A stretch of 64,000 bases of DNA from Larsenimonas rhizosphaerae (lineage in GTDB: Bacteria; Pseudomonadota; Gammaproteobacteria; Pseudomonadales; Halomonadaceae). Numbering within the stretch: position 1 is the first letter of the stretch; each line of letters opens with the position of its first letter. The notes under the pieces are model-generated. The model did no database searches and was not told the DNA's origin. It worked only from the letters and a program-made list of their open reading frames with translations. A program made the translations under genes and the position numbers. The stretch is from assembly GCF_023700005.1 (NCBI RefSeq), contig NZ_JAMLJK010000001.1, positions 1 through 64,000 on the forward strand, given 5' to 3'. Below, piece by piece: positions 11,737 through 20,198 of the stretch.

Positions 11737-12582
11737 TCAGGACTCAAGACGCAATTCATCAATGATGTTCAGGCTGGGTTCGGCCTGGTTAAGCGTATAG
11801 AAATGAAGCCCTGGTGCACCGCCATCGATCAACTGCTGGCACAGGCCTGTAACGACCTCATGGCCGAACGCCTGCAGGCTGGCGCTATCATCACCATAGG
11901 AGGCCAGCTGCCGGCGCATCCAGCGCGGGATATCCGCGCCGCACATTTCCGAAAAACGAGCCAGTTTGGAGTAGTTGGTAATAGGCATGATGCCAGGCAC
12001 GATTGGAATATCTACCCCGTGGGCCCGCACTCGATCAACGAAATGAAAATAGGCATCGGCATTGAAGAAATACTGGGTAATGGCCATATCGGCCCCGGCC
12101 TTGACCTTGTCGACAAAATGACCGATGTCACGCTCAAGATGTTCAGCCTGCGGATGACACTCTGGGTAGGCTGCCACCGAAAGCTTGAAATGATCGCCGG
12201 TTTCCTCACGGATGAAGGAAATCAGATCGGAGGCATACCGAAATTCTCCGCCGCCCATCGACCCGGAAGGCATGTCACCTCGCAGGGCCACGATGCGCTC
12301 GACGCCCTCTTCACGATACAGATGCAGCATATCGCGCACGGCGCTGCGATCACTCAGAACGCAGGACAGATGCGGTGCAGTGTCAATGCCGCTTTGACGC
12401 ACAGAAGCCACTGTATTGAAGGTCTTGTCTCGTGTAGAGCCGCCGGCACCGAAGGTCACGGAGAAGAAGTGCGGTGAACGAGCGGCCAGCTTGTCCCGCA
12501 CCAGCTGCAGTTTCTGATCACCCGATTCCGTACGCGGGGGAAAGAATTCAAAGCTGATACTGTGAGAGGAGGCAGTCGTCAT
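11737..12582 (-). CDS. metF: 5,10-methylenetetrahydrofolate reductase
   Basis: FAD-dependent enzyme of 281 residues that reduces methylene-THF to methyl-THF, the methyl donor for methionine synthesis. The N-terminal SFEFFPPRTESG, the VTFGAGGSTRD segment near residue 43, the RGDMP segment near 100 and AVAAYPECHP near 135 are family hallmarks. It has its own unit here, unlike the common ahcY-metF arrangement; ahcY and metK lie 3 and 7 kb away. Its 5' region is 139 bases long and I see no riboswitch there. Confidence 0.94.
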   Translation of the reverse strand: MTTASSHSISFEFFPPRTESGDQKLQLVRDKLAARSPHFFSVTFGAGGSTRDKTFNTVASVRQSGIDTAPHLSCVLSDRSAVRDMLHLYREEGVERIVALRGDMPSGSMGGGEFRYASDLISFIREETGDHFKLSVAAYPECHPQAEHLERDIGHFVDKVKAGADMAITQYFFNADAYFHFVDRVRAHGVDIPIVPGIMPITNYSKLARFSEMCGADIPRWMRRQLASYGDDSASLQAFGHEVVTGLCQQLIDGGAPGLHFYTLNQAEPSLNIIDELRLES

Positions 12583-14845: not shown

Positions 14846-14872
14846 GAAAAATGCCGCCCCGAAGGGCGGCAT
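14846..14872 (-). terminator. Terminator of ahcY
   Basis: A nine-base-pair stem (ATGCCGCCC with GGGCGGCAT) and a CGAA loop, followed on the minus strand by a T-run. There is no T-run on the plus side, so it mainly serves ahcY. Confidence 0.85.
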
Positions 14873-14916
14873 TGTCATCATGCTGTTTGTGGTTCAGACA
14901 TCATGAAAGGCAGATA

Positions 14917-16329
14917 TCAATAACGATACTCATCGGGCTTGAACGGGCCTTCCTGCGGCACGCCAAGATAATCTGCCTGTTTGGAGGTCATTTTAGTCAG
15001 CACACCACCAAAACCTTCCACCATATAGCGTGCCACTTCCTCATCAAGCTGCTTGGGAAGTACTTCAACCGTGATGCGCTCAGCACGCGCTCCCTGCTCG
15101 AGATCAGCAAACTTACGCTCGAACAGATGAATCTGTGCCAGTACCTGGTCAGCAAAGGAGCCATCCATGACACGAGACGGATGACCTGTCGCGTTGCCCA
15201 GGTTGACCAGACGCCCTTCGGAAAGCAGCAACAGGTAGTCGCTACTGGTCGGATCAAAGTTATCCTGTGAGCCATCACGATAAATCTTGTGGACCTGTGG
15301 CTTCACTTCTTCCCAGCCCCAGTTGGCGCGCATGAAGGCCGTATCGATTTCGTTGTCGAAGTGGCCGATGTTGCAGACTACGGCTCCTTTCTTCAGCGCT
15401 TTCAGCATGCCGGCATCACAGACATTGACGTTGCCGGTCGTTGTGACCACCAGATCAATCCTGCCCATCAGTGCCTTGTCGACAGACTCGCCATTCTCAT
15501 CGTTGTTGCCGTCAACATAAGGAGAGACAACTTCGTAGCCGTCCATGCAGGCCTGCATGGCACAGATCGGGTCGATCTCGGAGACCTTGACGATCATGCC
15601 TTCGTTACGAAGCCCTGCCGCAGAGCCCTTGCCTACATCACCGTAGCCGATCACCAGCGCCTGCTTGCCGGAGAGCAGATGGTCCAGCGCACGTTTGATC
15701 GCATCGCTCAGGGAATGACGGCAGCCGTACTTGTTATCGTTCTTGGACTTGGTGACCGAGTCATTGACGTTGATGGCCGGCACCTTGAGCGTGCCTTTTT
15801 TCATCATATCGATCAGACGGTGAACGCCCGTGGTGGTTTCTTCACTGATGCCGTGAATATCGTCGAGCAGCTGCGGGTACTTGTCATGCAGAAGCTCTGT
15901 CAGATCGCCCCCGTCGTCCAGCACCATGTTGGGCTTCCAGCCATCCGGGCCTTCCACGGTCTGTTCGATGCACCACCAGAATTCGTCCTCGGTTTCGCCT
16001 TTCCAGGCAAAGACAGGAATGCCTGCCGCGGCAATGGCTGCCGCCGCCTGATCCTGAGTCGAAAAGATGTTGCAGGAAGACCAGCGTACGCTGGCACCCA
16101 ACTCGATCAGGGTTTCAATCAGTACGGCTGTCTGGATGGTCATATGGATACAGCCGGCGATCCGGGCATCCTTGAGCGGTTGTTCGGCACGGTATTTTTC
16201 GCGAATCTTCATCAACGCCGGCATTTCGGTTTCGGCGATGCGAATCTCGCGACGTCCCCAGTCCGCCAGCGACATGTCAGCAACCTTGAAGTCACCCTGT
16301 GATGCCGTGTCATACGCCATTGCGCACAT
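14917..16329 (-). CDS. ahcY: S-adenosylhomocysteine hydrolase
   Basis: Hydrolyses S-adenosylhomocysteine to adenosine and homocysteine, removing product inhibition of methyltransferases. The 470-residue protein shows [18 protein letters not shown] near residue 58, the NAD-binding [17 protein letters not shown] segment and the C-terminal KPDEYRY. The frame opens at 16341, but I prefer the ATG at 16329: a GGAGA site lies right before it, while the first ATG has no ribosome-binding site between itself and the riboswitch. An SAH riboswitch directly upstream should switch expression on when the substrate accumulates. Confidence 0.96.
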
Positions 16330-16351
16330 ACTTGTCTCCATTCATATCGAA

Positions 16352-16426
16352 TGGGCGCCGTTGACAGTGGTAGACGAACCTCTCGAGCCTCGCGGTTTGA
16401 CCGCTGCAGCGCCCCTCGAGCGGTAC
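16352..16426 (-). ncRNA. SAH riboswitch in the ahcY leader
   Basis: On the minus strand the leader has the conserved GAGGGGCGCUGC core, a small hairpin (GCGGUCAAACCGC) and then GAGGCUCGAG, which closes P1 with CUCGAG. The 3' strand AACGGCGCCC follows about 20 bases later and can form the pseudoknot with GGGCGC in the core. Compared with the well-studied Ralstonia aptamer, the A in GAGCGC is G here and its partner is changed to C, which keeps the pairing. The aptamer ends about 13 bases before the GGAGA site of ahcY. Confidence 0.95.
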
Positions 16427-16479: not shown

Positions 16480-16508
16480 AGTATAACGAAGATCAATGAT
16501 TTACCGAA
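16480..16508 (-). promoter_or_regulatory. Possible ahcY promoter
   Basis: A TATACT hexamer at 16485-16480 lies about 55 bases before the riboswitch. The hexamer 17 bases upstream (TTCGGT) matches the -35 consensus poorly, so only the -10 element is convincing. Confidence 0.4.
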
Positions 16509-16603
16509 CCTTCCTGTACTTCTTCGGCCCGGACGGCAAGAAGTTTACGACACAAGGAAAGTACCGGGCAGCGGCGCTGTCACCACGCCGCATATCCTTG
16601 CAC

Positions 16604-17881
16604 CTAGGAGTGATGTCTGGTGGTACCTGATGATTTGACTGAACCATCCTCTGGTAGAACAGCACTTACCAGCTTACCGATGGTAAGCCCCTGTACCAGT
16701 ATCGAAAACAGGACAATGATATAGGTAATCACCACCAGCGATTCTCGGTAGGGGGTATCCGGCAGGCCCAGTGCCAGCGCTACGGAAATACCGCCACGCA
16801 GCCCGCCCCAGGTCAGCACACGTGTTGTCCCGGTACGAAAGGAATACCACTTCCGAAGAAGGGTAATCGGTACACCGATCGTGATGAAGCGAAACATCAA
16901 AATCAACAGGATCAACGGCATTGCGATCCAGATGTAATAACTGTTGAAAGGGATGATCAGCAGCTCAAGCCCGATCAATACAAACAGCACGGCATTAAGA
17001 ATTTCATCGATCAATTCCCAGAACCCATCAACATAGCGGCGCGTGTTATCCGACATCGCCCCCACACGTGCCATGTTGCCGATGATCAGACCGGCAACCA
17101 CCATTGCAATGGGGCCGGAGACGTGCAGAGTGGAAGCAAGTGCATACCCGCCAATGACCAGTGCCAGACTGAGCATGACCTCCACCTGATACTGATCGAT
17201 GCTTTTCATCAGAAAATACACCAGCGCCCCCAGCGCTCCTCCCAGAACGACACCACCACCGGCCTCTTCCAGAAACAGAAGGCCAACGTGTGAGGGTGTC
17301 AGCGTATGAACACCGGCGGATGCTGCCCCCACCAGGGCTGTGAACACCACGACTGCGACACCATCGTTGAACAGGGACTCACCAACAATCTTGATCTCCA
17401 TATCCTTCGGAGCGCCGGCATTTTGCATGATACCCAGCACTGCAATGGGATCCGTCGGAGCAATCAGGGCACCAAAGATCAGGCAATAGATATAAGGCAC
17501 ATCCATGCCGAACCAGCCAAACAGCCACCATGCGGCGCTGCCTACGGCGACAGTGGATAATACAACGCCGAACGTCGCCAGAAACCCGATGGAATAGCGA
17601 TAACTCTTGAGCTCGTGGATATCCACGTGCAGTGCGCCTGCAAACAACAGAAAGGACAGCATGCCGTCCATCAACAGGGTGTTGAAGTTGATCTGCTCCA
17701 GCCAGTACTGGGCATGATCGGTCAATACGGTAACCCCCAGATGATTCAGGCCCACCAGCGTCAGCGACAGCACCAGCCCGATCACCATGACGCCAATCGT
17801 GGGTGGCAATCGTATAACCTTGTGGTTGAACCACAGGAACAACGCCGTAATCGTGATGAACAAGGCTGCAATATTAAGCAT
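16604..17881 (-). CDS. CPA1-family Na+/H+ antiporter (NhaP type)
   Basis: Cation:proton antiporter of 425 residues with about twelve membrane segments. The family's ion-binding residues are visible in FGALIAPTDPIAVLGI (TDP motif, about residue 145) and GESLFNDGVAVVVF (ND motif, about 173). A conserved arginine follows in TWGGLRGGISVALALGLP. It should expel sodium or potassium in exchange for protons, in keeping with a salt-tolerant host. It begins six bases after the upstream EIIC-like gene and is probably co-transcribed with it. No RCK or TrkA_C regulatory domain is seen. Confidence 0.87.
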   Translation of the reverse strand: MLNIAALFITITALFLWFNHKVIRLPPTIGVMVIGLVLSLTLVGLNHLGVTVLTDHAQYWLEQINFNTLLMDGMLSFLLFAGALHVDIHELKSYRYSIGFLATFGVVLSTVAVGSAAWWLFGWFGMDVPYIYCLIFGALIAPTDPIAVLGIMQNAGAPKDMEIKIVGESLFNDGVAVVVFTALVGAASAGVHTLTPSHVGLLFLEEAGGGVVLGGALGALVYFLMKSIDQYQVEVMLSLALVIGGYALASTLHVSGPIAMVVAGLIIGNMARVGAMSDNTRRYVDGFWELIDEILNAVLFVLIGLELLIIPFNSYYIWIAMPLILLILMFRFITIGVPITLLRKWYSFRTGTTRVLTWGGLRGGISVALALGLPDTPYRESLVVITYIIVLFSILVQGLTIGKLVSAVLPEDGSVKSSGTTRHHS

Positions 17882-17886
17882 GTACG

Positions 17887-18903
17887 TTACTCGACGGACA
17901 GACGCAGATCACCGGGCTGGATCAACCCGCCGCGCTGCATGAAATGATGAATAATCCACGCCAGTATGGCCGGTGCCAGAATACACAGCACCGCAGTACC
18001 TGCCATCGATGTTGCGGAAAGCCCCATGGTCTGAAGCACCATGACAGGGCCGACCAGCCCACTGGTGCCCATTCCTGCGCCAGCAGCGTTACTGGTCAGT
18101 ACCAGTACAGCAGTGGCCAAAGGAGCCAGAAGCGCTCCGGCAACGGTGGGCGGCACTAAAATCCAGGGGTTGCGAGCAATGTTGCCGATCAACAGCATGG
18201 AGGTACCAAGGCCGATGGCGATTGATGGACCAATGCCATTGTCCCGGTAGCCGGCGGCTGCAAATCCCATCATCTGGGCAGCACAGCCAACCGTCGCCGC
18301 TCCGGCGGCCAGACCGTTCAAATCCAGCATGATGGCGATGGCAGCACTCGAAATGGGAGCCGTGAGTGCCAGTCCCATGACCGTGGCGACCACTACCCCC
18401 ATGATGATGGGGCGCAACTCCGTGGCCCAGCTGATGGTCTGCCCCAGTCCGGTCAGAGCGGCAGCCAGGGGGGGAGCAATGAGCTGAGCCACCAGATAAC
18501 CGGTGCCGATAGTGACCAGAGGAGTCACCACGATATCCAGTGCTGTTTCCTTCGATATCAGCTTGCCGATTTCAACCGATACCAGCGTAGCCGCCAGTGC
18601 GCCTGCCGGCCCGCCGAGGCTTGCCCCTACCGTTCCCGATACCAGCGCGCTGTACAGCACCAGCGGTGGTGCCTTCAGCGCATTGGCCACGGCTACTCCG
18701 ATGGCCGCGCCCATCAGGGACATGGCGGTCTGTCCCATATCGACCAGGGGAGCAACTCCCAGGGAGTTCCCCAGGGTTTTCAGTATCAAACCAATGATCA
18801 GTGAGGCAAAGAGCCCCAGCGCCATGTGGCTCAGGCAGGTAACGCCATAAAGTGACAGACTCGGGACGACCTGCTTGCGTCGGGCAAATTCCACCAGCGA
18901 CAC
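17887..18903 (-). CDS. Orphan EIIC-like membrane protein (PTS_EIIC_2/PfoR type)
   Basis: Very hydrophobic protein of 338 residues, with about nine membrane segments rich in Gly and Ala. It resembles the PTS_EIIC_2 (PfoR) family, which looks like sugar-PTS permeases, but no EIIA, EIIB, HPr or EI genes are nearby. The open frame reaches 18963, but that start lies upstream of the metK terminator hairpin. The GTG at 18903 has AGAGG eight bases before it and lies after the hairpin, so I choose it. It is followed immediately by an antiporter gene. True substrate unknown. Confidence 0.75.
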   Translation of the reverse strand: MSLVEFARRKQVVPSLSLYGVTCLSHMALGLFASLIIGLILKTLGNSLGVAPLVDMGQTAMSLMGAAIGVAVANALKAPPLVLYSALVSGTVGASLGGPAGALAATLVSVEIGKLISKETALDIVVTPLVTIGTGYLVAQLIAPPLAAALTGLGQTISWATELRPIIMGVVVATVMGLALTAPISSAAIAIMLDLNGLAAGAATVGCAAQMMGFAAAGYRDNGIGPSIAIGLGTSMLLIGNIARNPWILVPPTVAGALLAPLATAVLVLTSNAAGAGMGTSGLVGPVMVLQTMGLSATSMAGTAVLCILAPAILAWIIHHFMQRGGLIQPGDLRLSVE

Positions 18904-18931
18904 ATCGCTATCCTCTTGTAGGTATAAACGC

Positions 18932-18957
18932 AAAAGAACCCGGCCGTGGCCGGGTTC
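18932..18957 (-). terminator. Terminator of metK
   Basis: GAACCCGGCC and GGCCGGGTTC form a ten-base-pair arm set, followed on the minus strand by a T-rich tract. It lies between metK and the EIIC-like gene. Confidence 0.85.
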
Positions 18958-18977
18958 CATCAAACTGACTGACAGGC

Positions 18978-20198
18978 TTACAGCCCGGCAGCAGCCTTGA
19001 GGTCATCCGCTCTATCGATCCTTTCCCAGGGGAAGGCCGTAAAGGTTTCTGTCTGCTGCTGCCCGTTGACGTCTGTCCAGGTATAGCTGTGTTCAAACGG
19101 CTCACGCCCGAAATGGCCATAGGATGCCGTCAGCTGATACATGGGATGCAGCAGGTCCAGCATGGTGGTAATGGCATAGGGACGCAGATCAAAATGCTCG
19201 CGTACCAGCTCAACGATACGAGCATCGCTGACCAGGCCGGTACCAAAGGTATTGATTGATACAGACGTTGGTTCAGCTACGCCGATGGCATAGGACACCT
19301 GAATTTCGCAGCGATCTGCCAGGCCGGCGGCCACAATGTTCTTGGCCACGTAGCGTCCCGCGTAAGCCGCGCTGCGGTCTACCTTCGATGGATCCTTGCC
19401 GGAAAATGCTCCGCCACCATGACGCGCCATGCCGCCGTAGGTATCTACAATGATCTTGCGGCCGGTAAGACCACAATCCCCTACCGGACCACCAATAACG
19501 AACTGCCCGGTCGGGTTGATGTGAAACTCGGTACTGTCGGTGATCCAGTCAGCCGGCAGCACTTCACGGATGATCAACTCTTCCACCGCCTGACGCAGCT
19601 CGTCCTGAGAAACATTTTCGTCATGCTGTGTCGACAGAACAATGGCATCTATAGCAACAGGCTTGCCATCATCACCATAGCGGAACGTAACCTGGCTTTT
19701 GGCATCCGGGCGCAACCATGGCAGGGTGCCATTCTTGCGAAGCTCCGACTGACGCTCGACCAGGCGATGCGCATAATGGATTGGCGCGGGCATATAGGAG
19801 GGGGTTTCATTGGTAGCATAACCAAACATCAACCCCTGATCTCCTGCGCCCTGGTCTTCTGGACGAGTACGGTCCACGCCCTGAGCAATATCTACGCTCT
19901 GCTTGCCGATCAGGTTCAGTACACCACAGGTCGCACCATCAAAACCTACAGCCGATGACGTATAACCGATCTCGGAAATCACCCGGCGTACCAGATCTTC
20001 CAGATCAACCCAGGCATTCGTTGTAATTTCACCCGCCACGATGGCAACACCGGTTTTCACCAGTGTTTCACAAGCCACGCGGGCCTGCTTGTCACGCGCA
20101 ATCAGTGCGTCCAGCACGGCATCCGAGATTTGATCGGCGATCTTGTCAGGGTGGCCTTCGGACACCGACTCAGAAGTAAACAGTGAGTATTCGCTCAT
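18978..20198 (-). CDS. metK: S-adenosylmethionine synthetase
   Basis: Makes SAM from methionine and ATP. The 406-residue protein has the N-terminal [21 protein letters not shown] segment (methionine and ATP contacts), the [20 protein letters not shown] segment near residue 122 and the glycine-rich [19 protein letters not shown] loop near 265. An AAGGACG site precedes the ATG. It ends before a terminator, so it forms its own unit. With metF and ahcY it completes much of the SAM cycle in this window; I see no riboswitch in its 110-base leader. Confidence 0.97.

Follow-up and report, generated by a model that had tools for sequence, protein, structure and literature searches.

The window analysed here, a stretch of 64,000 nucleotides from Larsenimonas rhizosphaerae, carries the adenosylhomocysteinase gene ahcY behind a leader in which the pseudoknot of an SAH aptamer appears to be changed on both sides, with its pairing kept. 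The leader raises the question of whether this change sets the RNA apart from other SAH riboswitches, and of how such an RNA might act on the gene that follows it. According to comparative work, several lineages of beta- and gamma-proteobacteria have SAH riboswitches ahead of ahcY (PMC4239095, in the part of the text available), and a modelling paper that cites Wang et al. 2008 describes the sensing of SAH by this riboswitch class as raising ahcY (PMC7057144, in the portion accessible).

The aptamer and its place before ahcY

An Rfam covariance search of the window returned a match to the SAH riboswitch (RF01057) on the reverse strand at 16346-16423, which spans the model from 1 to 78 of its 78 positions and scores 54.4 bits, with a gathering score of 37 and an E value of 2.9e-07 for the whole window. 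A sequence-only reading had proposed an SAH riboswitch at 16352-16426, which is about the same stretch, and the full-length match above gathering confirms that identity. The 3.29-Mb genome contains no other copy of RF01057, and none of 14 well-known control genomes gave a match when searched in this way. A second SAH aptamer was sought by covariance search before metF (11737-12582), and none was found. Weak Rfam matches to Phe_leader, RsmY, istR and ryfA nearby, each scoring far under gathering, were discounted as chance hits.

In the Rfam alignment, P1 is formed on the reverse strand by a 5' arm at 16416-16422 and a 3' arm at 16386-16380, with six of seven pairs made and one G.A mismatch, while P2 consists of four pairs between 16400-16403 and 16396-16393 around a 3-base loop. 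The pseudoknot joins GGGCGC in the core (16409-16414, model 10-15) to GCGCCC in the 3' strand (16353-16358, model 66-71), with all six pairs kept; among these, G16413 (model 11) pairs with C16354 (model 70), a pair at which covariation is seen. The RNA shares with RF01057 its P1, P2, pseudoknot, core and the ahcY gene downstream, and differs from it by a G-C instead of an A-U at model pair 11-70 and by the one mismatch in P1. Given its membership in this family, SAH would be the ligand that the aptamer binds. The SAM/SAH riboswitch (RF01727) is similar in its SAH sensing, its pseudoknot and its action on translation (PMC7367207 and PMC10516623, in the text available), but that class is placed before metK in Rhodobacterales, according to the accessible part of PMC2864571. 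The covariance search found no RF01727 at gathering score in the window, and none up to an E value of 1 between 11000 and 21000.

The gene itself, ahcY (14917-16329, reverse strand), matches TIGR00936 at 513.1 bits (cut-off 497.6), and a Shine-Dalgarno sequence, GGAG, lies at 16336-16339 on the same strand, is conserved in relatives and is separated by six bases from the ATG at 16329. The aptamer thus precedes the ahcY ribosome-binding site, as had been claimed, and the start at 16329 that the earlier reading favoured also stands. Besides the spacing of GGAG, the beginning MCAMAYD is common to AhcY here and at L158, L159 and L026. An alternative in-frame ATG exists at 16341, within GAAUGGAG; the GAAUGGAG hairpin occurs in 35 family leaders, and its ATG is out of frame in 29 of them, which favours 16329.

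Upstream of the aptamer, a candidate -10 element of the leader promoter (TATACT, 16480-16485, reverse strand) lies in a block, ATCTTCGTTATACTG, that is conserved in L158 and L159, which belong to the same genus; a strict sigma-70 promoter scan returned no promoter, this candidate included. A long imperfect inverted repeat at 16504-16564 separates the ahcY leader from an antiporter gene, and a search of the genome for copies of the repeat found only itself. On the same strand as ahcY and upstream of it (16604-20198) are metK, an unnamed hydrophobic open frame of 358 residues and the Na+/H+ antiporter-like gene. An intrinsic terminator with a 10-pair stem and a T-run lies just 3' of ahcY (14850-14873, reverse strand). 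About 2.3 kb past ahcY, behind this terminator and a gene on the opposite strand, is metF, which therefore falls outside the ahcY operon here, unlike in most lineages of PMC4239095 (as far as its available text goes), where metF is part of that operon.

Variation at model pair 11-70 and elsewhere in the aptamer

The Rfam consensus is GAGCGc/GCGCUC where the ahcY leader has GGGCGC/GCGCCC, and the two-sided departure at model pair 11-70 (A to G and U to C, with pairing kept) is real when judged against that consensus. How unusual it is was assessed in three sets of leaders. The family sample comprised 201 same-family genomes, 59 of which match RF01057, and 62 matches were taken from it; the class sample comprised 369 genomes, 154 of which match. 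The class census used the best 130 of at least 150 listed places, with the 18 weakest listed left out and two of 150 (G000 and G015) counted in the family set instead, so that class counts are tilted to the better matches. Pooling of family and class gave 192 hits, or 188 distinct aptamers, and a start and Shine-Dalgarno sequence were located in 179 of these 188 leaders. The third set consisted of 80 named loci, of which 50 fit the leader pattern, while the other 30 may be without the RNA or may miss the pattern.

The rarity implied by the sequence-only reading was not upheld. G-C is the usual pair in the family, where it occurs in 56 of 59 distinct aptamers (A-U in three), and in the 50 named leaders, mostly from Pseudomonas, where it occurs in 45 (A-U in four and G-U in one). 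The class sample, with 129 distinct aptamers from the best-scoring matches listed, contains 108 A-U, 15 G-U, 5 G-C and 1 A-C. Overall, the pair covaries among the 188 distinct aptamers of the matches listed (111 AU, 61 GC, 15 GU and 1 AC). On an AhcY tree of 109 protein rows (LG+G4, quick search), the G-C label requires at least five changes, at least three of which are forced by well-supported branches. As judged from these counts and the tree, G-C at pair 11-70 is an old and recurrent exchange, with G-U as its natural half-way form; duplex energies of the pseudoknot are -11.7 (G-C), -9.6 (A-U) and -8.7 (G-U) kcal/mol. Since A-U, G-U and G-C are freely exchanged at this position, the change supports the existence of the pseudoknot but is no sign of an altered function, and G-C is a neutral-looking, inherited and recurrent alternative to A-U. 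The ahcY leader is accordingly a standard SAH riboswitch of a known family, and its paired change, though real, is ordinary. Close parallels are Pseudomonas ahcY leaders (named loci such as L063 and L098), which have the same G-C pair and the CCAUUC...GAAUGGAG element; in many of them the loop is longer and there is one more CG pair.

Two further observations concern variation among SAH aptamers. A second two-sided change, located deeper in the core, turns the leading G of AGGCU into C and the C of CAACGG into G in seven of the 188 distinct aptamers among the matches listed (L153, L160, L166, L167, L169, L170 and L171, from two same-family genera), the other 181 being G-C. This swap points to a putative long-range core pair. 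Moreover, in three family genomes (L013, L157 and L164) a second, divergent ahcY (MNAVAE...) is preceded by an additional SAH riboswitch, whose pair 11-70 is A-U. The AhcY of L013 falls outside its own family in the tree, on a long branch, a placement suggesting that gene and switch may have been transferred together.

A proposed stem shared by the pseudoknot strand and the ribosome-binding site

We consider it likely that this cis-acting SAH riboswitch serves as a translational ON switch of ahcY; the direction of control, and switching itself, are what we infer. When SAH is absent, CCAUUC (16354-16349), which begins within the 3' pseudoknot strand and runs on past its end, would pair with GAAUGG (16343-16338), and the resulting stem would mask half of the Shine-Dalgarno sequence. 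When SAH is present, the aptamer would lock the 3' strand into the pseudoknot, GGAG would be freed and more SAH hydrolase would be made. The proposed hairpin, CCAUUC-GAUAU-GAAUGG (16338-16354, reverse strand), has an energy of -6.7 kcal/mol when taken alone, and its C16354 and C16353 are also part of the pseudoknot.

The sequence motif of this hairpin is present in 40 of the 50 named leaders, and GCGCCCATTC...GAATGGAG in 37 of the 39 Pseudomonadaceae leaders. Across 65 families (one row each, among the matches listed), the best stem between the strand and the Shine-Dalgarno sequence or start codon has a mean energy of -10.39 kcal/mol. Controls in which 5' arms were swapped between the 65 families gave -8.07 +- 0.23 kcal/mol, and those with shuffled spacers -8.31 +- 0.32 kcal/mol, with 0 of 500 as low as the observed mean in either case. 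The arm-swap control within the family was weak (42 of 500), because the arms barely vary there. Stems of -9 or stronger were found in 61 of the 121 class leaders in which a start could be located (among the matches listed), 27 of them touching the Shine-Dalgarno sequence and 38 the start codon, and in 37 of 58 family leaders, where the Shine-Dalgarno sequence was touched in all 37. This class-wide excess is consistent with a model in which the SAH-bound pseudoknot and the stem covering the ribosome-binding site would be mutually exclusive. In the accessible parts of the open-access literature beyond the founding studies of Wang et al. (2008) and Edwards et al. (2010), we found no description of such a shared-strand stem.

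A more specific version, which we hold only tentatively and regard as doubtful, is that nucleotide 70 of the aptamer may serve both the pseudoknot and the stem covering the ribosome-binding site, that nucleotides 11 and 70 and the opposite Shine-Dalgarno base may coevolve, and that, along with the exchange of A-U for G-C, the stem may have moved from CUC/GAG to CC/GG in its pairing with the Shine-Dalgarno sequence. Of 55 family leaders with C70, 42 have G as the opposite base, and of 78 class leaders with U70 (among the matches listed), 49 have A, counts that fit this reading. Such an arrangement may already have been described for Pseudomonas syringae, by Wang et al. in 2008.

Folding predictions and other possible modes of control

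Several predictions speak against the switch. The free nested fold of the ahcY leader gives the hairpin a probability of about 0.01 and leaves the Shine-Dalgarno sequence mostly open; forcing P1 and P2 lifts this probability to no more than about 0.54, and reserving the pseudoknot strands leads to a fold in which the Shine-Dalgarno sequence is paired elsewhere. Averaged over all leaders, Shine-Dalgarno accessibility did not rise once these strands were reserved (family, 0.30 to 0.28; class, 0.37 to 0.38), and only two of the four Shine-Dalgarno bases lie within the proposed stem. The programs used fold nested structures and are blind to pseudoknots and ligand, so the mechanism remains one that we infer.

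An open Shine-Dalgarno sequence in the free fold, together with the mismatch in P1, would also suit a decayed or constitutive leader, which has kept the aptamer sequence and lost the response. Such a leader is very improbable: the RF01057 match is full length with an intact core, the same P1 position is mismatched in L158 and L159, and the aptamer core has stayed the same despite divergence of the leader 5' to the aptamer. It is likewise unlikely that the Shine-Dalgarno sequence is controlled by the linker GUCUACCA pairing with UGGAGAC, and not by the pseudoknot strand. This pairing does form in the nested fold with the pseudoknot strands reserved, but the linker is not conserved in L158 and L159, where the CCAUUC and GAAUGG arms are, and it was rejected because these genus mates are without it.

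The aptamer could instead act through transcription termination, like some SAH riboswitches; that of Dechloromonas metH is employed as a transcription switch (PMC5621056, in the part available). For ahcY this seems quite unlikely, since a terminator scan of this strand gave no hit from 16423 to 16329, the closest being the one after ahcY (14873-14850), and the pseudoknot strand is only 13 bases from the Shine-Dalgarno sequence.

For the translational ON switch, the sharing of the pseudoknot strand, across the class, with a stem covering the ribosome-binding site would provide a simple test for how most SAH switches act. For L. rhizosphaerae, the start of ahcY is fixed and the genome gains a clean regulatory annotation.
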